Of a stretch of DNA of 32,148 nucleotides, positions 6,183 through 16,485 are shown piece after piece (position 1 is the first letter of the stretch; each line of letters starts with the position of its first letter). Origin of the DNA: a virus; the IMG/VR virus record IMGVR_UViG_3300031565_000215, positions 1-32,148 of that record, one strand, 5' to 3'. Below the pieces are notes generated by a model that worked only from the letters and a program-made list of their open reading frames with translations, was not told the origin of the DNA and did not search any database. The position numbers were made by a program, and so were the translations under genes.

Positions 6183-6897
6183 ATCCGTCACGCAGATTTC
6201 GAGGAGACTGACGATGCCGCGTTTTCCACGGTTTCCGCAGGCCACAACGGCTCCGAAAGCCGGCCCGAGCCCGATACAGCCGCAACCTGCCCGCCGCAGG
6301 GCTCCTGCCCGCCGCAGGGCTTCAGCAGGCGGGTCAGCAGGCGGGTCCGATCCACTGCCGGCGTGCTTCTCCGTGGAGCGATGCGAGGGATCGGACGCCT
6401 GTGAGTTCTGCAAAGCCGATTCGCCGTTGATCGAGCGGGGGTGCCGGATGGCGTGCCGAGCGAAGGCGAACGAAAAGGCAGACCTGACGCTCTGCCAGGA
6501 CTTCGGGCACTATGATCCCCACCGGTACCACTGCGTGCAGTGCTGGCGGTCGCGGCCGGGGCACAGCAAATTCGAGTGCAAGGATCTGACGGCGCGCCGG
6601 GCCGCCGAGGCGCAGGCAGTCCGCCAGGAGACGCAGGTGGACCAGGCAAAGGCGGACCTCGAGTCAGCCCAACGGCGCGCGCGGCTGGCAGCGATCCGCG
6701 AGGGACTGCCGGCGGAAATCCAGGCGGAGCTTCGAGAGGCGGCGGAGGCGGCGCTGAACGGATTCATGGCTGCCAAGCTCGCCCGGGAGAAACGGAACGG
6801 GCAACTGATGCCAACGACGCGCATGGCCATCGAGGCCGAGATTGACAAGATCACGGAGATTCGATTCGGCACTGACGAGGAAAGGCCACCTGAATGA
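6142..6897 (+). CDS. Cys-rich protein with helical C-terminal half, 251 aa
   Basis: Residues 1-70 are low complexity and contain two in-frame tandem repeats: PARRRA twice, from 18-base repeats at 6286-6321, and AGGS twice, from 12-base repeats at 6324-6347. The middle (about 75-150) has ten Cys in CxxC-like spacings, e.g. CEFCKAD, HYHCVQCWRS-type pairs and FECKDL, so it probably binds zinc. The C-terminal 100 residues are a charged helix. GTG 6142 has an excellent AGGAGGT. An alternative ATG at 6214 with GAGGAG (6201-6206) would drop 24 residues. It overlaps the next gene (ATGA). Function unknown; the position suggests replication or recombination. Confidence 0.6.
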   Translation: MFGGAVGTVHPASRSVTQISRRLTMPRFPRFPQATTAPKAGPSPIQPQPARRRAPARRRASAGGSAGGSDPLPACFSVERCEGSDACEFCKADSPLIERGCRMACRAKANEKADLTLCQDFGHYDPHRYHCVQCWRSRPGHSKFECKDLTARRAAEAQAVRQETQVDQAKADLESAQRRARLAAIREGLPAEIQAELREAAEAALNGFMAAKLAREKRNGQLMPTTRMAIEAEIDKITEIRFGTDEERPPE

Positions 6898-7472
6898 ACG
6901 AAAAATTGTGGGCGATCATCGATAGAAACTACCAGCTCCTATGGACCCGCACGGAGCTCATGCACAAACGCCTCGCCGAGCTTGAGAACGCAGCCCTCGA
7001 CAAGGCCGCGATCGAAGCCAACACGAACGAAATCACGCAGGAGCTCGCGCGGTTGCGCGAGGAGAATGCAATCCTGGCTGCAGGGGTGGAAGAGCCGCCG
7101 GCAAACCCGTACGGCTACGAGCTGATCCTCGATCTTCACGGCTGCGACAGGTCGACGTTCAATCGGCCGAGTCTGCGGGAGTTCTTCAAAAAACTGTGCA
7201 CGCAGATCGAGATGAAGCGATGCAAGCTGCACTTCTGGGATGATGCCGGCCTACCGGCCGAGCAGTGCCAAACGTCGCCCCATACGAAGGGCACGTCGGC
7301 CGTGCAGTTCATCTTGACGAGCAGCGTCGTCATTCACACGCTGGATCTGCTGGACGCGGCGTACGTGAACATATTTTCCTGCAAGCTGTTCGACCCGATC
7401 GCGGCCGAGCAACTGACCAGGGAATGGTTCGCGGCGAAGGAATGCCGCAGCCGTTTCATTCCGCGAGTATGA
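6894..7472 (+). CDS. AdoMet-decarboxylase-fold (SpeD-like) protein with N-terminal coiled coil, 192 aa
   Basis: Residues 1-63 form a charged helix or coiled coil. From residue 73 (YGYELILDLHGCD) to the end it follows the bacterial S-adenosylmethionine decarboxylase layout (PF02675): GxHxxxDxxGC, a helix, a strand, then the processing site and second repeat. Aligned to the Thermotoga enzyme by eye, pyruvoyl-forming Ser63, His68 and Cys83 correspond to Ser143, His148 and Cys163, with identical spacings of +5 and +15. However, the normal Glu-Ser cleavage pair is Thr-Ser, and the substrate-side HTWPE reads HTLDL. This suggests a different substrate or a non-processed relative. Phage SpeD homologues acting on arginine or ornithine have been reported, so polyamine synthesis is one hypothesis. 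ATG 6894 overlaps the preceding stop. Confidence 0.7.
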   Translation: MNEKLWAIIDRNYQLLWTRTELMHKRLAELENAALDKAAIEANTNEITQELARLREENAILAAGVEEPPANPYGYELILDLHGCDRSTFNRPSLREFFKKLCTQIEMKRCKLHFWDDAGLPAEQCQTSPHTKGTSAVQFILTSSVVIHTLDLLDAAYVNIFSCKLFDPIAAEQLTREWFAAKECRSRFIPRV

Positions 7473-7947: not shown

Positions 7948-8200
7948 GGCGATAAAGCCGAAGCGAAAAATCCGCAACCCGAAAACGAAGGCCGAATGGC
8001 AGGCGGCGGCCGACTGCGCAGAATTTCTGCTCGCGGCCGATTCCTGCAAGCAGTACGGCTTGGTAACCGGCGGGCCAGCCGTGAACGTCGACCGTTGCGT
8101 GGAGATCCTGGAGAAGGCGAAGGCCATGGGCATCGCGCCCGCGCCCGACGCCATCGAGCGCTACGCCAACGCGTGGCAGGAGCAACAATCCCATGGCTGA
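7925..8200 (+). CDS. Small basic helical protein, 91 aa
   Basis: Begins with three consecutive ATG codons (7925, 7928, 7931) overlapping the previous gene by 23 bases. The N-terminus is Lys/Arg-rich (KPKRKIRNPKTKAEWQAAAD) and the rest is helical, with two Cys. No family recognised. The end overlaps the ERF gene by eight bases, linking it to the recombination cluster. Confidence 0.6.
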   Translation: MMMQTRTEAIKPKRKIRNPKTKAEWQAAADCAEFLLAADSCKQYGLVTGGPAVNVDRCVEILEKAKAMGIAPAPDAIERYANAWQEQQSHG

Positions 8201-8873
8201 TGAAAAAGTTCATCCTACGCTGGCCGAGCGGCTGGTGGCCGTACTGGCGCAAACCCAGGCGGTGCCGAAGGCCGGCTACAACGAGCAGCAGCGATACCGC
8301 TATCCGACGATCGGCGGGGTGATGGAGATGGTCCGCGTGGCGTTGGCGGCGCACGGGGTGTTTCTGTGGACCGTGCCTGCCGACGTGCAGTTCACCGACA
8401 TCGCCCGCGAGGGGAAGGCGTCGATTGCGTGCGCTCGGCTGACGGTGACCTTCCGTCTCGAGGATGCGGCGACGGGCGAGACGATGGCGATCGCGTGGCC
8501 GGCCGAGGGGCAGGACGTGGGCGACAAGGCGGTCGCGAAGGCCCTGGCGGCCGCGCAGAAAACCTTCCTGGTGCGAACGTTCCTGCTGCCGTCGCTCGAT
8601 GATGAGCCGGATGCGCCGCCGCAGGCTGGGGGCGCGAGGCCACGGACAAACACCGGACCTGCACGGACGCCGGCCGCCGGGGTCGATCTGCAGACGGGGG
8701 AGGTGAAGACGATCAACGACCGGCAGTTGGCGATGCTTAGGGCGAAGCTGGCGGAGGCGAACAGGAGTGATCTCGAGGCTTGCGAGAAAGCGGGGGTCTC
8801 GGCGCTCAGGCTACTGACGAATGTGCAGCTCGACAAGTTGCTGGATTGGATAGGCCCGAGGAGAAAACCGTGA
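8193..8873 (+). CDS. ERF-family single-strand annealing protein, 226 aa
   Basis: Residues 30-140 show the ERF (PF04404) pattern: YRYPTIGGVMEMVRVALAAH with G then VFLWT, a strand pair, GETMAIAWPAEGQDVGDKAV, and the AAAQKTFLVRTFLLPSLDDE motif that corresponds to the family's SAxTYxRRYxLxxLLGIxxDDD. A Pro/Gly linker (about 140-170) leads to a small helical C-terminal domain ending LDWIGPRRKP. ERF proteins anneal homologous single strands in phage recombination and genome circularisation. ATG 8193 has AGGAG at 8178-8182. The stop overlaps the GTG of the ASCH gene. Confidence 0.85.
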   Translation: MADEKVHPTLAERLVAVLAQTQAVPKAGYNEQQRYRYPTIGGVMEMVRVALAAHGVFLWTVPADVQFTDIAREGKASIACARLTVTFRLEDAATGETMAIAWPAEGQDVGDKAVAKALAAAQKTFLVRTFLLPSLDDEPDAPPQAGGARPRTNTGPARTPAAGVDLQTGEVKTINDRQLAMLRAKLAEANRSDLEACEKAGVSALRLLTNVQLDKLLDWIGPRRKP

Positions 8874-9256
8874 TCGACAAAATGCGGAGAATCGTGAGAG
8901 CGGTGAGTGTGCAGCAGCCATGGGCGAACATGATCGCGGCGGGGAAGAAGACGATCGAGACGCGGACCTGGTGTACCAGGTACCGCGGGGAGCTGCTGAT
9001 CGTGAGCTGCCGGCTGCCGCCAATCCGGCCGGCGGGGTTTGCAGTGGCGCTGTGCAAGCTCGCCGATTGCCGGCGGATGTGCCCGTACGACGAGGCGGCC
9101 GCGTGCGTGGCGTGGAGCAGCTGGCTGTACGCGTGGGTGCTCGAGGACGTGCGCGCGATCGAGCCGTTCGAGGTGAAGGGCCGGCTGGGGTTTTTCAAGG
9201 TCGAGGTGACTGAGGAACAGTTAGCGGCGAAGCCGAAAAAGGAGTTCTGGAGATGA
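8870..9256 (+). CDS. ASCH-domain protein, 128 aa
   Basis: The VSVQQPWANMIAAGKKTIET start followed by RTW and YRGELLIVS is a textbook ASCH (PF04266) N-terminus. A middle strand (FAVALCKLADCR) and the ending WVLEDVRAIEPFEVKGRLGF match the rest of the domain. ASCH proteins bind RNA or modified nucleosides, and some act as N4-acetylcytidine amidohydrolases; the exact role here is unknown. GTG 8870 overlaps the ERF stop (GTGA) and has GAGGAG at 8859-8864. An ATG at 8882 is less well placed. Confidence 0.85.
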   Translation: MIDKMRRIVRAVSVQQPWANMIAAGKKTIETRTWCTRYRGELLIVSCRLPPIRPAGFAVALCKLADCRRMCPYDEAAACVAWSSWLYAWVLEDVRAIEPFEVKGRLGFFKVEVTEEQLAAKPKKEFWR

Positions 9257-9453: not shown

Positions 9454-9698
9454 GCCAGCCATTCGCTAATAGGAAGAACGCGCCGTCGATCAACGAGGCT
9501 CGCCGCGTGGCGAAGACGTACGATCTCGATGGCGTGATCATCGTGTTCGTGCGGGGCGATCAGTTCGGCACGGCGAGCTACGGCCGCACGAAGGCGGAGT
9601 GTGCGCGGCTGGCACGGGCCAGTGACGCGATTGTGAAACTCGTTGAGAAGGGCAACCTGGTGATCGCGGATGACGAGGACCAGGGGGATCTGTTTTGA
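9450..9698 (+). CDS. Small alpha/beta protein, 82 aa
   Basis: A predicted beta-beta-alpha core (DLDGVIIVFVRGDQFGTASY then GRTKAECARLARASDAIVKL) with an acidic tail DDEDQGDLF. Proteins of this kind, with a DGVIIV strand and a SYG-T-x-x-x-C helix, recur among phage early genes without known function. ATG 9450 overlaps the previous stop, and the stop overlaps the TTG of the ParB-like gene. Confidence 0.6.
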   Translation: MSQPFANRKNAPSINEARRVAKTYDLDGVIIVFVRGDQFGTASYGRTKAECARLARASDAIVKLVEKGNLVIADDEDQGDLF

Positions 9699-11587
9699 TC
9701 AGCAATCCTCGTATCGGGCAGCAGGTGCAGGTCTGGTACGCGAAACGGACGCGGGCAATGATGCCGCTGCACGGTCGGATGGGGATCGTGGTATCAGTGG
9801 GTATCGGGCGCCCGCGAAATCACTTGGTGCTCGTTGACAACGAGCAGGTCATTGTGCCGGGCGGAAACATCCGGCCGGTGGGCACGGAAACTGAAAGGAC
9901 ACGGATCATGGGCAAGAGGACGAACAAGCAGGGCAGCGTGGCGGCCGATCCATTGACTGGCGTGAAGCAGATAGTGACGCGCGCGCTGGCGGCCCAGGCG
10001 GAGATCGATGCACTGGGGGCCGGTAAACCGGCAATCGCCGAGCAGGTGCGGCTGGAGATGATTCCGCCGCGGGCGATTCAGTTCTCGGCTGACAACACGC
10101 GCGAGGATCCGGAGAAACATCCGGACTGGGCGGAGTTCGCACAGAACGTGAAACTGAACGGAGTGCGCGTGCCGGTGCACGTGCGGCCACAAGCAGGGGG
10201 CAGATGCCCGTTCATCTTGGTGGCGGGCGAGCGACGGATGCGGGCGGCCCACGCAGCAGGCCTGGCCACGGTGCCGGCGGTGGTCCACGAGACGATGACG
10301 GCGGATGACGCGATCGAGCTGACGATCCTGGAAAACTACGGGCGGGAGGATCTGTCGCCCATCGAGCAATCGCGGGGGGTGACGAAGCTGCTGGAACGCC
10401 GGGGCGGCGACATGCGGGCCGTCGCCGCGCTGTTCGGGAAATCGGAGCGGTGGGTTCACCTGCGGGCGCAGCTTCAGAACCTGACGGCGGCTTGGGAGGA
10501 GGCGATACCGGACTATTTCGCGAAGTGGACGATCAGCCACCTGGAGCTGATCGCGCGGCTGCCGGCAGACACGCAGGATGGTGTGCTGATCGAGCTCCGC
10601 GGGGCGTGGGAGCACGATCAATGGAGTACGGAGGAGCTGGAGAACTGGCTGGCCAACAAGCTGATAATGTTGTCGCGGGCGCCGTGGAATCTGGCGGCGG
10701 TAGACGTTGGGGAGCCGGGGGTGCCCTCGTGCCGGTGCTGTGAGCATCGGTCAGGGTTCAAACCGCTGCTGTTTCATCCGGAGGGGGTGACGGAGGCGGA
10801 GATCGAGAAAAATGATCAATGCCTGGATCCGAAATGCTGGAAGGCGAAGATGACAGGCTACCTAGTGCGGCGGTTCGCGGAGGTGAAGGCGGAGCATCCG
10901 GAGGTGGTGACGGTGCGGCAGGAATACCACGAGCCGCCGAAGGAGCTGCGGAAACAGCTCGGCAAGCCCTTGGCGCCGTACACCTACACGAAGGTCAAGA
11001 AGGACACCCCGAAGGCAGTGCTGGCGTTGGTGGTGGATGGGAATGACCGCGGAAAGACGATCTGGATCGACGGCAAGGAGCTGGAGCAGGAGAAAGGCAA
11101 AGGGCGGGGGCCGTCGCCGCAACAACAGAAGGCGGAGCGGGAGGGGCGGCGGATGATGATCGTCGGGAAAATCATGGCGAAGCAGATTCCGAAAGTCAAG
11201 GTGGGCGATCGTGGAATTGAACTGATGCTGCAGGTCTGGCTCGCGTTAAGGGACTATGGCAATCTGGCATCGGGCCTCGCGAGGTTCGGCAAGCTCAAGG
11301 GCAAGGCACTGCTCAGCGCGGCCTGGCAGCAAATCTGCAAGGATATGGAGGACCGGATGGAATACTGCCGCGATCCGAAGTCCATCGAGGCGGTGGGAAA
11401 ACTGTTCGCCCTCGATCTGAGGGAGCTGCGTGAGCAAGCGCTGCGGGAAGTGCCGGAGCCGGAGAAGGGGAAGCCGGGACGCAAGGGCAAGGGCAAGGCA
11501 GAGGCCGCGGCGGTCCCTCAGGATGAGCCGTCGGACGGCGAGGATGATTCGATGGGCGAGGGCGGAGAGGATGGGATCGATGAATAA
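9695..11587 (+). CDS. ParB-like nuclease/partition-fold protein with fused N-terminal module, 630 aa
   Basis: From residue ~118 to 290 this is a ParB-type protein: VAGERRMRAAHAAGLATVPA matches the GERR Box II of ParB/sulfiredoxin folds, followed by a LTILENYGREDLSPIEQSRG helix and an HTH (AVAALFGKSERWVHLRAQLQ). Cys motifs CRCCEH and CLDPKCWKAK (about residues 346-390) match the CxxC/CxDPxC tail of many phage ParB-like proteins. The C-terminus is low-complexity Lys/Glu. Residues 1-71 are a separate module (RGRPRNHLVLVD-like, GGNIRPVG) of a kind I know as a stand-alone short phage protein. TTG 9695 overlaps the preceding stop with GGGGGA upstream. An internal ATG 9908 with AAAGGA is a credible second start. 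Phage ParB-like proteins can be DNA-binding regulators or nucleases; no ParA partner is seen. Confidence 0.75.
   Translation: MISNPRIGQQVQVWYAKRTRAMMPLHGRMGIVVSVGIGRPRNHLVLVDNEQVIVPGGNIRPVGTETERTRIMGKRTNKQGSVAADPLTGVKQIVTRALAAQAEIDALGAGKPAIAEQVRLEMIPPRAIQFSADNTREDPEKHPDWAEFAQNVKLNGVRVPVHVRPQAGGRCPFILVAGERRMRAAHAAGLATVPAVVHETMTADDAIELTILENYGREDLSPIEQSRGVTKLLERRGGDMRAVAALFGKSERWVHLRAQLQNLTAAWEEAIPDYFAKWTISHLELIARLPADTQDGVLIELRGAWEHDQWSTEELENWLANKLIMLSRAPWNLAAVDVGEPGVPSCRCCEHRSGFKPLLFHPEGVTEAEIEKNDQCLDPKCWKAKMTGYLVRRFAEVKAEHPEVVTVRQEYHEPPKELRKQLGKPLAPYTYTKVKKDTPKAVLALVVDGNDRGKTIWIDGKELEQEKGKGRGPSPQQQKAEREGRRMMIVGKIMAKQIPKVKVGDRGIELMLQVWLALRDYGNLASGLARFGKLKGKALLSAAWQQICKDMEDRMEYCRDPKSIEAVGKLFALDLRELREQALREVPEPEKGKPGRKGKGKAEAAAVPQDEPSDGEDDSMGEGGEDGIDE
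9908..11587 (+). CDS. Alternative shorter ParB-like product from an internal start, 559 aa
   Basis: ATG 9908 lies in frame within the long gene and has the standard AAAGGA site (GAAAGGACACGGATC), stronger than that of the TTG at 9695. It would give the ParB domain without the N-terminal module. Either both forms are made, or only one of the two starts is real. Confidence 0.45.
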   Translation: MGKRTNKQGSVAADPLTGVKQIVTRALAAQAEIDALGAGKPAIAEQVRLEMIPPRAIQFSADNTREDPEKHPDWAEFAQNVKLNGVRVPVHVRPQAGGRCPFILVAGERRMRAAHAAGLATVPAVVHETMTADDAIELTILENYGREDLSPIEQSRGVTKLLERRGGDMRAVAALFGKSERWVHLRAQLQNLTAAWEEAIPDYFAKWTISHLELIARLPADTQDGVLIELRGAWEHDQWSTEELENWLANKLIMLSRAPWNLAAVDVGEPGVPSCRCCEHRSGFKPLLFHPEGVTEAEIEKNDQCLDPKCWKAKMTGYLVRRFAEVKAEHPEVVTVRQEYHEPPKELRKQLGKPLAPYTYTKVKKDTPKAVLALVVDGNDRGKTIWIDGKELEQEKGKGRGPSPQQQKAEREGRRMMIVGKIMAKQIPKVKVGDRGIELMLQVWLALRDYGNLASGLARFGKLKGKALLSAAWQQICKDMEDRMEYCRDPKSIEAVGKLFALDLRELREQALREVPEPEKGKPGRKGKGKAEAAAVPQDEPSDGEDDSMGEGGEDGIDE

Positions 11588-12539
11588 AACGAACATCGGC
11601 TGGTGTGCCGTGCCGGGCTACGTGCCGTGCACTGAGCAGCTCGTGGCCGGGTGCACTCCAGTGAGCCCGGCCTGCGATCATTGCTACGCGGCGGCCGGCG
11701 CGTGGCGGATGGCCAACAATCCCAACGAGGCGATCGCAAGCCGCTACCGCGGGCTGGTGACGCGGCAGGGCTGGACGGGGGAAGTGCGGCTGCTGGAGGA
11801 CGTGCTGCTCGAGTACGAGGACCAGGCACGGCACGTCGCGGCTGACCACATCCTCGGCCGCAAGGCCAGGCGCAAACCCCGGTGCATCTTCTGGTGCAGC
11901 ATGGGCGATCTGTTCCACGAGGCCGTGCCGGCGGCGTTCATCAGGCGGGCGTACCGCGTGTTTGCCCTGCTCGCCGATGACATTCATATCGTGTGCACCA
12001 AGCGGCCAGACCGGATCGTGCCCGCACTGTATGGCGAGGGCGATGAAACGCTTCCGGCACAGGAGGGGCAAGCGCTGCCGAACGTCTGGCATCTGACAAC
12101 CGTTGAGAACCAGGAGCAGGCGGAGCGGCGTGTGCCTGAGCTGCTCGCCCTACGTGAGCACGGCCCGTGGCCTGTGCTGGGGGTAAGTTGCGAGCCGTTG
12201 CTGGGGCGGGTAGATCTAAGCGCCATCAGGGCCATGCGGCGATGCCCTCAGAATGCAGCCGCAGGTCATGGTATTCGCACATTGTGCCCATGCAGATCAG
12301 TGGATATGGGCACCTGCAAAGACTCACGACCAGAATGCGGATTGGATTGGGTGATCCTGGGGGGCGAGACGGGCAGCCAAGCTCGGGAGATGGATCCAAC
12401 GTGGCTACTACACATGCTCAGGGACTGCAGGCGTGCGGGCGTGCCGTGCTACCTGAAGCAACTCGGTGACGCTTGGCGGCTGCAGGATCGCAACGCGGTG
12501 CGGCCTGACGAGCACCGCGCCTGGCCAGTGATATGTTGA
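11580..12539 (+). CDS. DUF5131 (phage Gp37/Gp68) family protein, 319 aa
   Basis: The N-terminal cluster GCTPVSPACDHCYAAA (Cys25, Cys32, Cys35) is the family's GCxxxSPxCxxCYA signature and looks like a radical-SAM-type iron-sulfur site. Later blocks KPRCIFWCSMGDLFHEAVP, WHLTTVENQEQAERRVP, VSCEPLLGRVDL and DWVILGGETG are also typical of PF07505. A Cys-rich insert (CPQNAAAG...CPCRSVDMGTCKDSRPEC) between the CEPLL and ILGGETG blocks may bind a second metal. ATG 11580 has GGAGAGG at 11563-11570; ATG 11571 is too close to it. The biochemical role of the family is unknown. The gene ends just before a terminator. Confidence 0.85.
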   Translation: MNKTNIGWCAVPGYVPCTEQLVAGCTPVSPACDHCYAAAGAWRMANNPNEAIASRYRGLVTRQGWTGEVRLLEDVLLEYEDQARHVAADHILGRKARRKPRCIFWCSMGDLFHEAVPAAFIRRAYRVFALLADDIHIVCTKRPDRIVPALYGEGDETLPAQEGQALPNVWHLTTVENQEQAERRVPELLALREHGPWPVLGVSCEPLLGRVDLSAIRAMRRCPQNAAAGHGIRTLCPCRSVDMGTCKDSRPECGLDWVILGGETGSQAREMDPTWLLHMLRDCRRAGVPCYLKQLGDAWRLQDRNAVRPDEHRAWPVIC

Positions 12540-12808: not shown

Positions 12809-13333
12809 ATGCCCGAGATCAATGTGAAACCGGAAATAGCGGAAATGGCGCTGGCGAAAATCAAGCCGGCGCCATACAACCCCCGGCAGATCGGCGACGC
12901 GGCGTTTGCGGGGCTGCAGGAATCGATGTCGAAGTTCGGCCTGCTGGACCTGCTGGTGGTGAACAGGCGGACGGGCCGGCTGATCGCGGGGCACCAGCGG
13001 CTGAAGGTCCTGCAGGCGGCGGGCGTCAAGCGGGTGCCCGTCATCCAGGTCGATTTCGACGAGGTGACGGAGAAGGCCGCCAACCTCGCGCTGAACAGCC
13101 AGCAGCTCGCCGGCCAATGGACCGCTGCCCTCGCCCCCCTGCTCGACGAGCTCCGCGAGCAGCTCCCCTCCGACGAATACCTCGCGTTGCGGCTCGAGGA
13201 GCTTCGCGGCGAGATCGCCGCAATGGAAATTCAGATGCCAAAGGACTTCAAAGAATTCGATGAAAGCACAGCCAATGGAATCACGATCTGCAAGTGCCCG
13301 ACCTGCGGTCATGAACATGCTCGTAAGGATTGA
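12809..13333 (+). CDS. ParB/sulfiredoxin-fold protein with C-terminal zinc tail, 174 aa
   Basis: KIKPAPYNPRQIGDAAFAGL, then SMSKFGLLDLLVVNRRTGRL and IAGHQRLKVLQAAGVKRVPV (about 58-77, with GHQRL replacing GERR) match the short phage ParB-N proteins usually found next to DNA methylases and terminases. The C-terminal CKCPTCGHEH (161-170) is a probable zinc-binding tail. ATG 12809 has AGGAG at 12799-12803. It overlaps the methyltransferase gene by 23 bases, so the two are likely coupled. Its exact role (regulatory, nuclease or packaging) is unknown. Confidence 0.8.
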   Translation: MPEINVKPEIAEMALAKIKPAPYNPRQIGDAAFAGLQESMSKFGLLDLLVVNRRTGRLIAGHQRLKVLQAAGVKRVPVIQVDFDEVTEKAANLALNSQQLAGQWTAALAPLLDELREQLPSDEYLALRLEELRGEIAAMEIQMPKDFKEFDESTANGITICKCPTCGHEHARKD

Positions 13334-14432
13334 TGACTACCCAGCACATCTGAATGCCTGCTGGCAAGAACACCTTGCCTCTCACAATCAGAATGCCCCG
13401 ACTGTCATCTCTACCTTCGCCGGCTGCGGCGGATCATCACTCGGTTACAGCATGGCCGGCTTTCATGAACTCCTGGCCACTGACTGGAATGAACCGGCCA
13501 TGCAGACCTTCCATCTGAACTTCCCCGGTATGCCTCTGCTCTGCAGGGATATCGCCAAGCTCTCAGTCGATGATCTCCTCAGGCGAACCGACCTTCAGCC
13601 TGGTGAACTCGATGTCCTCGATGGTTCACCTCCCTGCCAGGGGTTCAGTACCGCCGGCAAACGTGAACTCGATGATCCTCGCAACAACCTGTTCAGGCAG
13701 TACGTCCGACTGCTCACCGGTCTGCAGCCGAAAATCTTCGTGATGGAAAACGTAGCCGGCATGGTCAAGGGCCTGATGCGCCTTGCATTTGTTGAAATCC
13801 TCAGGCAACTCAAGGCAGCAGGCTACCAGGTCTCTGCCCGGCTGATGGATACCATGTACTTCGGAGTTCCCCAGTCACGTGACCGGATGATCTTCATCGG
13901 GGTCCGCAATGACCTCGGCATCATGCCGAGTCATCCGAAGGCTCAGACTGTTCCCGTTACAGTCCGTCAGGCAATCGGAATGCTGCCTCTCGGCATGCCG
14001 GGAAATCATGAGCCTCAGATTATCAAGGCATGGTCAATGACTAAGCCAGGTCAGTCATCCCGCAAGGTCTGCAAGTACGTAGGGTCATTCCAGTCTATCC
14101 GACTCGATCCTGAGAAGCCAAGTTGCGTACAGATCAAAGCGCACTTGAACTGGCATTATGCCATCTGTCGACATGTAACTATTCAGGAGGCTGCCCGGAT
14201 CGGCAGTTTCCCGGACCAATTCAGGTGGGCTGGTGAGAAAGGACGGGCAAAAGATCAGATCGGAAACAGCGTCCCCCCGCTCTTCATGCGGGCGATAGTA
14301 CTGCACCTAAGGCAGAATATTTTAGACAAGATCAAGCCCGGCCAGAAGGCAACCAGGGAAACCACGTGTGCCAAGAAAGAAAAAGCCAGCGGCCCGGCTG
14401 CACGCAAAGCCGGCCGCAAAGCCGGCAAGTGA
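13311..14432 (+). CDS. Cytosine-5 DNA methyltransferase, 373 aa
   Basis: The motifs are in order: STFAGCGGSSLGYSMAGF (motif I, AdoMet binding), DGSPPCQGFS with catalytic Cys109 (motif IV), MENVAGM (motif VI), QSRDRMIFIGVR (motif VIII) and DQIGNSVPP (motif X). The region between VIII and X holds a short target-recognition stretch. It transfers a methyl group to cytosine C5 in DNA, plausibly shielding phage DNA from host restriction. The base composition is visibly more AT-rich than its neighbours, suggesting separate acquisition. ATG 13311 or 13317 could be the start; neither has a strong ribosome site, and translation may be coupled to the ParB-like gene it overlaps. A basic C-terminal tail overlaps the next gene by 65 bases. 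Confidence 0.85.
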   Translation: MNMLVRIDDYPAHLNACWQEHLASHNQNAPTVISTFAGCGGSSLGYSMAGFHELLATDWNEPAMQTFHLNFPGMPLLCRDIAKLSVDDLLRRTDLQPGELDVLDGSPPCQGFSTAGKRELDDPRNNLFRQYVRLLTGLQPKIFVMENVAGMVKGLMRLAFVEILRQLKAAGYQVSARLMDTMYFGVPQSRDRMIFIGVRNDLGIMPSHPKAQTVPVTVRQAIGMLPLGMPGNHEPQIIKAWSMTKPGQSSRKVCKYVGSFQSIRLDPEKPSCVQIKAHLNWHYAICRHVTIQEAARIGSFPDQFRWAGEKGRAKDQIGNSVPPLFMRAIVLHLRQNILDKIKPGQKATRETTCAKKEKASGPAARKAGRKAGK

Positions 14433-15494: not shown

Positions 15495-15775
15495 TGAAAA
15501 GATCACGCCCGCCCGATGGCACCTACATTCCCCTCTGCGGGGACTCCGACGGCCACGTCATTTATGGCCACCTGACCGCCGAGCAGGCAAACGAGATCAT
15601 CCTGCATGAGTACGGCTGCACGATGGATCCCGGCACGTTCGTTCGTTGCTGGGCGCACTGGTCGTTCAGCCGTTGCCCCGACGAGTACGATCAGGAGATC
15701 ATGTTTCACCGGCAACCGGGCCGCGGTCGATTCCCGGTGACTGCCATTGGAGCGTTCCCGTTTGAGGAGGACTGA
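15494..15775 (+). CDS. Small protein of unknown function, 93 aa
   Basis: Soluble, with three Cys and several aromatic residues (RCWAHWSFSRCPDEYD). No metal motif or family is clear. ATG 15494 overlaps the previous stop with AAAGGCGG upstream, and the stop shares a base with the next ATG (TGATG). Tight packing supports expression. Confidence 0.6.
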   Translation: MKRSRPPDGTYIPLCGDSDGHVIYGHLTAEQANEIILHEYGCTMDPGTFVRCWAHWSFSRCPDEYDQEIMFHRQPGRGRFPVTAIGAFPFEED

Positions 15776-16485
15776 TGCCCACGCGGCTGACCACATTCCG
15801 AGCGCTCGATCTGTTCTGTGGTGCGGGCGGCGCCTCGATGGGATTGCATCGGGCGGGTTTCGAGGTTACCGGGGTGGACGTGCGCCCTCAGAAACGATAC
15901 CCATTCCGATTCATTCAGCACGATGCCCTCGAGGTGAATCTGGATCTCGGTGGCCATTTCGATTTCATCTGGGCGAGCCCGCCCTGCCAGCATTATAGCA
16001 CGGCCACGAGTTTGAGCAAAACAAAGGACCGCCATCCCGACCTCATCACGGCCACGCGCTCGCGAATCCGCGCCGGGGCACCCTTCTGGTGCATCGAAAA
16101 CGTGCCTGGTGCGCCCTTGCGCGCGAGTCTGATGCTGTGCGGCCTGATGTTCGGGCTGAAGACACTGCGGCACAGGTTGTTTGAAACCAACTTCCTCGTC
16201 TGGCAGCCGGACCATCCCCGGCACGCAGGGAGCGTGCACGCGGGCGATTACGTCGCCTGCTATGGCAACGGCGGTGGACTCAATGCGCGCCGGCCCCACG
16301 CGCATTGGATCGGAAACAACACACCGGAAAACAACCGCGTTGCCGCCTGGCGCACCGCCATGGGAATTGATTGGATGACGCGCAAGGAAATCTCGCAAGC
16401 CGTCCCCCCGGCGTATGCCGAATGGATCGGCGGGTTTGCGATCATGTACCTGAGATCACGTGAATCCCAAGCATCGAGGATCTGA
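15775..16485 (+). CDS. Short phage cytosine-5 DNA methyltransferase, 236 aa
   Basis: RALDLFCGAGGASMGLHRAG (motif I), WASPPCQHYS with Cys71 (motif IV), CIENVPGAP (motif VI) and RHRLFETN (motif VIII-like) are clear. QAVPPAYAEWIG near residue 210 replaces motif X (GNAVPP). At 236 residues it is much shorter than the first methyltransferase and lacks most of a target-recognition domain, as in a known class of compact phage enzymes. GC matches its neighbours, unlike the 13311 gene. ATG 15775 has GAGGAGG upstream. It lies directly before the large terminase. Confidence 0.85.
   Translation: MPTRLTTFRALDLFCGAGGASMGLHRAGFEVTGVDVRPQKRYPFRFIQHDALEVNLDLGGHFDFIWASPPCQHYSTATSLSKTKDRHPDLITATRSRIRAGAPFWCIENVPGAPLRASLMLCGLMFGLKTLRHRLFETNFLVWQPDHPRHAGSVHAGDYVACYGNGGGLNARRPHAHWIGNNTPENNRVAAWRTAMGIDWMTRKEISQAVPPAYAEWIGGFAIMYLRSRESQASRI

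Follow-up and report, generated by a model that had tools for sequence, protein, structure and literature searches.

A phage SpeD homologue from a DUF3326-linked clade, probably a pyruvoyl-dependent decarboxylase of a substrate other than AdoMet

The viral DNA analysed here (the window, 32,148 bp of record IMGVR_UViG_3300031565_000215) carries a gene for a homologue of the S-adenosylmethionine decarboxylase (AdoMetDC) SpeD, designated P0001 (Table 1). The ATG of this open reading frame overlaps the stop codon of the upstream gene (ATGA), and the overlap together with GAGGAAAGG 8 nt upstream supports the assigned start and hence the N-terminal extension of the protein. An internal GTG start at 7086 (Val65), which would drop the N-terminal helix, was rejected because its Shine-Dalgarno sequence is unconvincing, whereas one is present for the assigned start. 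Residues 3-63 are modelled as one long helix, in line with the coiled coil of 63 residues recognised by the first-pass annotation. Close relatives start a few residues ahead of the YG-ELILDLH strand, and the helix is private to the window phage; our guess is that it would most likely serve oligomerisation or docking. Pfam confirms the ERF and ASCH genes that had been noted nearby. Further along the window lie a gene for a DUF5131 (Gp37/Gp68-like) protein, which in the viral locus L383 directly precedes DUF3326, two genes for ParB-N domain proteins and two C5-methylase genes.

Table 1. Features of the P0001 gene and of neighbouring genes in the window.
Feature	Position	Strand	Basis
SpeD/AdoMetDC-fold pyruvoyl decarboxylase homologue P0001, 192 aa (predicted)	6894..7472	+	ORF, Pfam, PHROG, model
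Shine-Dalgarno-like GAGGAAAGG, 8 nt 5' of ATG	6877..6885	+	sequence
N-terminal helix, residues 3-63, predicted coiled coil	6900..7082	+	AlphaFold model; missing in close relatives examined
AdoMet_dc domain, residues 77-191	7122..7466	+	Pfam PF02675, E 4.1e-13
Thr142-Ser143, predicted self-cleavage site and pyruvoyl serine	7317..7322	+	Ser in 238/238, Thr in 131/238 relatives
His148, equivalent of T. maritima His68	7335..7337	+	kept in 236/238
Cys163, equivalent of T. maritima Cys83 (proton donor)	7380..7382	+	kept in 238/238
ERF gene	8193..8873		Pfam
ASCH gene	8870..9256		Pfam
ParB-N domain protein	9695..11587		
DUF5131 (Gp37/Gp68-like)	11430..12539		E 2e-47
ParB-N domain protein	12809..13333		
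C5-methylase gene	13260..14432		read from sequence only
C5-methylase gene	15775..16485		Pfam, E 5e-12

P0001 belongs to the AdoMetDC superfamily: the AdoMet_dc model scores 50.1 bits against a curated cut-off of 25, and phrog_3125 ('S-adenosylmethionine decarboxylase') matches with E 6.7e-13. An AlphaFold model built with 45 clade members (pLDDT 92.6) has the AdoMetDC fold and finds Thermotoga maritima AdoMetDC (1vr7/1tlu) as its best PDB matches (E 5e-9 to 7e-9; TM, normalised by target length, 0.82-0.84); with the A. aeolicus enzyme included, the top matches to the domain span E 5e-9 to 4e-8 and TM 0.78-0.84 by target. Matches to Rab and ribosomal proteins were set aside as chance. P0001 shares with the class 1b enzyme of T. 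maritima the fold and the canonical spacing of Ser143, His148 and Cys163, but at ~22% identity it lacks the Glu-Ser and HTWPE motifs. Thr142 precedes the serine and the histidine motif reads H148-T-L-D-L, so that the Glu before the pyruvoyl serine and the Pro of HTWPE, the marks of a genuine AdoMetDC, are both absent; the score against the AdoMetDC equivalog TIGR03330 is 25.3 bits, a third of the cut-off of 75.65. The earlier proposals of a SpeD match, of a triad at T. maritima spacing and of common descent with AdoMetDC are thus borne out by family match, fold and triad conservation.

A single-sequence search of viral and genome contigs returned no close relatives of P0001, because the peptide patterns missed the conserved stretches. 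A few hundred relatives were fetched with the degenerate pattern RTNRAYATHTTY... (covering [IV]-[ND]-I-F-S-C-K-x-F-D), complemented by an alignment-based scan. Among 238 distinct domains the serine and the cysteine are present throughout and the histidine in all except two (Table 1), so that the outcome which the first-pass annotation had named as refuting its reading, a Ser143 that homologues do not share, did not occur. Before the pyruvoyl serine, 131 of the domains have Thr and 100 have Glu. Within the clade of the window protein (45 aligned sequences) Ser143, His148, Cys163 and nine further columns are invariant; the triad and Thr-Ser are kept while the remainder diverges to ~30% identity. 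Thr-Ser is therefore no lesion: it marks a large group and is normal for this branch of the family. The first-pass annotation had called the motifs changed, which is correct relative to AdoMetDC (Thr142, HTLDL) but misleading here, where Thr-Ser is usual; a phage-specific loss of the motifs is not supported. In one viral contig (L233, 3576-5438) a window-type SpeD domain ends an open frame of ~620 aa, and Ser replaces Thr before the pyruvoyl serine.

The Thr-Ser group, which has an SH-aLRT support of 100 in a tree built from 143 domains, splits into an HF (96) and an H[TASC]L (90) subclade. The window protein sits in the latter, which a careful tree search recovers as monophyletic (100/100). 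The HF subclade holds SpeDC-type proteins of Anaerolinea, Sumerlaeota and Omnitrophota (Omnitrophica), and proteins of this kind were shown to be pyruvoyl L-ornithine decarboxylases, known as SpeDC (Li et al. 2023, PMC10407285). When more outgroup rows are added, the window subclade nests within the HF group, with a long stem branch. The window protein thus belongs to a well-supported clade that either is the sister group of the pyruvoyl ornithine decarboxylases or lies among them. No characterised member of this clade was found in the literature.

Phage-borne SpeD homologues with ornithine decarboxylase (ODC), arginine decarboxylase (ADC) or AdoMetDC activity have been described (LBP, UCP01-04, HTVC201P and phiN3; PMC9992855) and are, like P0001, homologues of AdoMetDC that have diverged or been neofunctionalised. 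The tree included HTVC201P and the phiM12/phiN3 type but neither LBP nor UCP01-04. The pelagiphage HTVC201P enzyme, a characterised arginine decarboxylase, falls outside the window clade, as do the phiM12/phiN3 proteins, all on long branches. The phiM12 and phiN3 proteins are the closest named-phage matches to P0001. An E. coli speD mutant regains spermidine with the SpeD of Sinorhizobium phage phiN3 (PMC9992855), and the phiM12 protein, 99% identical to it, has DS and AHFCDV at the motifs. Loss of HTWPE alone is therefore not decisive against an AdoMetDC, and P0001 could in principle be a true AdoMet decarboxylase with divergent motifs. We regard this as very unlikely: the protein lies far under the equivalog cut-off, its clade is separate from the Glu-Ser types on the tree, and several genomes that carry clade members also have their own canonical SpeD and SpeE, others having no convincing SpeE. 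In Microcystis phage MaAM05 (L414) two adjoining SpeD genes are followed by speE, possibly a complete phage spermidine module.

In the nearest bacterial relatives the gene after SpeD encodes DUF3326 (PF11805). Of the distinct window-type loci, 43 extend far enough downstream to be judged, and in 33 of these the gene follows SpeD directly on the same strand; many or most of the loci are on metagenome-assembled contigs, in which binning errors are possible. The two genes are usually separated by a few bases or overlap, with up to 790 nt between them in a few loci. Downstream of the other SpeD types DUF3326 was found in none of 181 loci (ODC-type (HF) 0/71, Glu-Ser 0/93, remaining 0/17). The Fisher p of 5e-31 treats loci as independent, which their kinship weakens, and the motif classes were set after the data had been seen. 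Independent of these classes, a reverse scan from DUF3326 found SpeD within 5 kb in 55 of 70 distinct viral loci. Of 12 genomes tested from bacteria or archaea, every one holds DUF3326; among 14 control genomes, one does. The ten clade loci that have no partner are scattered on the tree, with at least nine changes by loss or separation. Apart from SpeD, DUF3326 alone is common to more than four of the clade loci; the pairing thus persists in surroundings that have little else in common.

DUF3326 itself is patchy, being found in 10/392, 1/399, 4/396 and 3/395 genomes of four phylum samples, each including its seed genome; it also occurs in cyanobacteria. Named phages and plasmids gave no DUF3326 match with the queries tried, and for this reason no cultured phage model was found. 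In the literature searched, subscription literature excluded, only two papers mention the family. Its structural model has no PDB match below E 1e-3; a lumazine-synthase fold was set aside, the match being partial and weak (E 2.3e-3, TM 0.55, rmsd 7). The window record, which may be incomplete, holds no DUF3326, and the partner was therefore not visible to the first-pass annotation. Neither was any polyamine gene recognised among the window genes scanned, and the earlier suggestion that polyamines serve DNA condensation or base modification finds no specific support.

The position of SpeD beside DUF3326 can be taken by other enzymes. Fifteen of the 70 viral DUF3326 loci have no SpeD; eight of these have an adjacent gene of the phosphatidylserine (PS)-decarboxylase family, two one of the ornithine-cyclodeaminase family and five neither. 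The PS-decarboxylase homologues paired with DUF3326 (L340-L344, L348, L351 and L336) keep the Gly-Ser site near the C-terminus. In two bacterial loci (L322, L326) the order is PtuA-PtuB-PLP decarboxylase-DUF3326, with a carboxynorspermidine-decarboxylase-like (NspC-like) enzyme in the SpeD position (TIGR01047, E 1e-100 and 2e-78, under the equivalog cut-off), and in two others (L324, L325) an Orn/Lys/Arg-type decarboxylase (OKR_DC_1) adjoins DUF3326. Mapped on the DUF3326 tree, the labels change twice for NspC, twice for PS decarboxylase and once for OKR. Since four unrelated decarboxylase families fill one position, decarboxylation is the likely function of this slot; the refilling also suggests that a single compound links the decarboxylase with DUF3326, as product or substrate of the latter. 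In an Aminicenantes genome (L331, L332) two further genes for DUF3326 have NRPS (condensation-domain) genes or very large genes as neighbours, a setting that would, as a weak hint, fit DUF3326 making an amino acid.

These substitutions also bear on the earlier alternative of a non-catalytic relative, in which P0001 would have a structural or regulatory role and bind a partner through its coiled coil. The helix found only in the window phage and the missing DUF3326 partner would suit such a role, but it would not predict replacement of SpeD by decarboxylases of other folds, nor does it fit the retention of the whole triad and Thr-Ser amid divergence elsewhere. We disfavour it and consider it hardly probable.

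The main rival takes P0001 for an ordinary pyruvoyl decarboxylase of L-ornithine (or arginine) that increases putrescine (or agmatine) during infection, in the way published for other SpeD homologues of phages; the DUF3326 of relatives would then simply use or modify either product. P0001 resembles SpeDC in fold, in Ser/His/Cys, in the Thr before the pyruvoyl serine and in conserved Gln and Tyr, and its clade is sister to or within that group. Of the four residues diagnostic for SpeDC (Gln, Thr, Phe and Tyr; PMC10407285), in columns assigned by the present analysis, P0001 has three (Gln138, Thr142, Tyr157). Ornithine decarboxylases and one arginine decarboxylase are known from phages (PMC9992855), and OKR-type enzymes take the place of SpeD beside DUF3326. 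However, the Phe that follows the histidine in SpeDC is Thr149 in P0001, followed by Leu, so that the full set is not present; this position is Thr, Ala, Ser or Cys in most members of the clade, which stands on a long stem branch. The neighbours differ as well: those of SpeDC are SpeD/SpeE, CASDH/CASDC or HSS, that of the window clade is DUF3326, which no ODC-type locus had. The characterised phage arginine decarboxylase groups elsewhere, and replacement by PS-decarboxylase and NspC-like enzymes fits free ornithine poorly. On balance we consider this alternative rather unlikely.

P0001, a member of a clade whose normal partner is DUF3326, thus probably decarboxylates an amino-acid substrate other than AdoMet by means of a pyruvoyl group. 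The first-pass annotation had likewise suggested a neofunctionalised pyruvoyl decarboxylase, a reading that the conserved triad, the clade joining the characterised ornithine decarboxylases and the decarboxylase substitutes support over that of an AdoMet enzyme; a non-catalytic protein is not supported by the same conservation and substitution. The proenzyme would cleave itself between Thr142 and Ser143, and Ser143 would turn into the N-terminal pyruvoyl group, which is expected to form a Schiff base with the alpha-amine of the substrate. After loss of CO2, Cys163 would reprotonate the intermediate and the amine would be released. In most relatives this reaction may be one step of a two-enzyme pathway, with DUF3326 probably supplying the substrate or acting on the amine that is formed. 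The window phage, with the decarboxylase alone in its record, would need a substrate from the host or a DUF3326 located outside the record.

In bacteria the pair is linked to the antiphage system Septu (PtuA-PtuB); the window itself gave no PtuA or PtuB match to the queries. Window-type SpeD and DUF3326 lie directly behind PtuA-PtuB in five loci (L290, L293, L296, L299 and L328), and PADLOC identifies the upstream genes as PtuA and/or PtuB in L114, L135/L293, L148/L290, L108/L299, L322, L326 and L328. Septu operons to which a decarboxylase gene and DUF3326 have been added are found at L290, L293, L296, L299, L328, L322, L326 and L114, the contig of the last ending after SpeD. PADLOC has no model covering P0001 or DUF3326, and a link between Septu and SpeD was not found in the literature searched (again excluding subscription literature). 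A gene for an MfnB-like furan-forming aldolase (PF04476, E 1e-37 in L299) precedes the operon in L299, L296 and L114; as a general partner MfnB was rejected, since it is present in only 3 of 12 genomes, though each time within the SpeD-DUF3326 neighbourhood. Two further operons (L292, L294) combine window-type SpeD and DUF3326 with a glutathionylspermidine-synthase-like ATP-grasp ligase, in L294 also with PspA, and resemble the polyamine-linked PSP operons described in PMC11237479. At L327 (5086-9567) SpeD-DUF3326 lies between guanylate-cyclase-domain/TPR and HNH/TPR proteins, with no PADLOC match.

New in this contribution are the DUF3326 linkage of the SpeD clade and the replacement of SpeD in its slot by other decarboxylases. 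The almost constant pairing of SpeD and DUF3326 in phages and bacteria points to an undescribed two-step amine pathway. Tentatively, and with less confidence than in the decarboxylase assignment itself, we propose that DUF3326 and an interchangeable decarboxylase (SpeD, PS-decarboxylase, NspC or OKR) may form such a two-enzyme pathway carried by phages, which bacteria may have wired into Septu operons, with MfnB as well in some genomes. There the amine could act as a trigger or cofactor, or protect nucleic acids by modifying them; of this pathway the window phage would have kept the decarboxylase only. A SpeD homologue in a phage is commonly taken for a polyamine gene; the DUF3326-linked clade points elsewhere. 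The repeated refilling of the decarboxylase slot with unrelated enzymes makes a specific chemical role for DUF3326 testable, and the recurrence of SpeD-DUF3326 in Septu operons of several bacterial phyla bears on small-molecule chemistry in phage defence and in phages.
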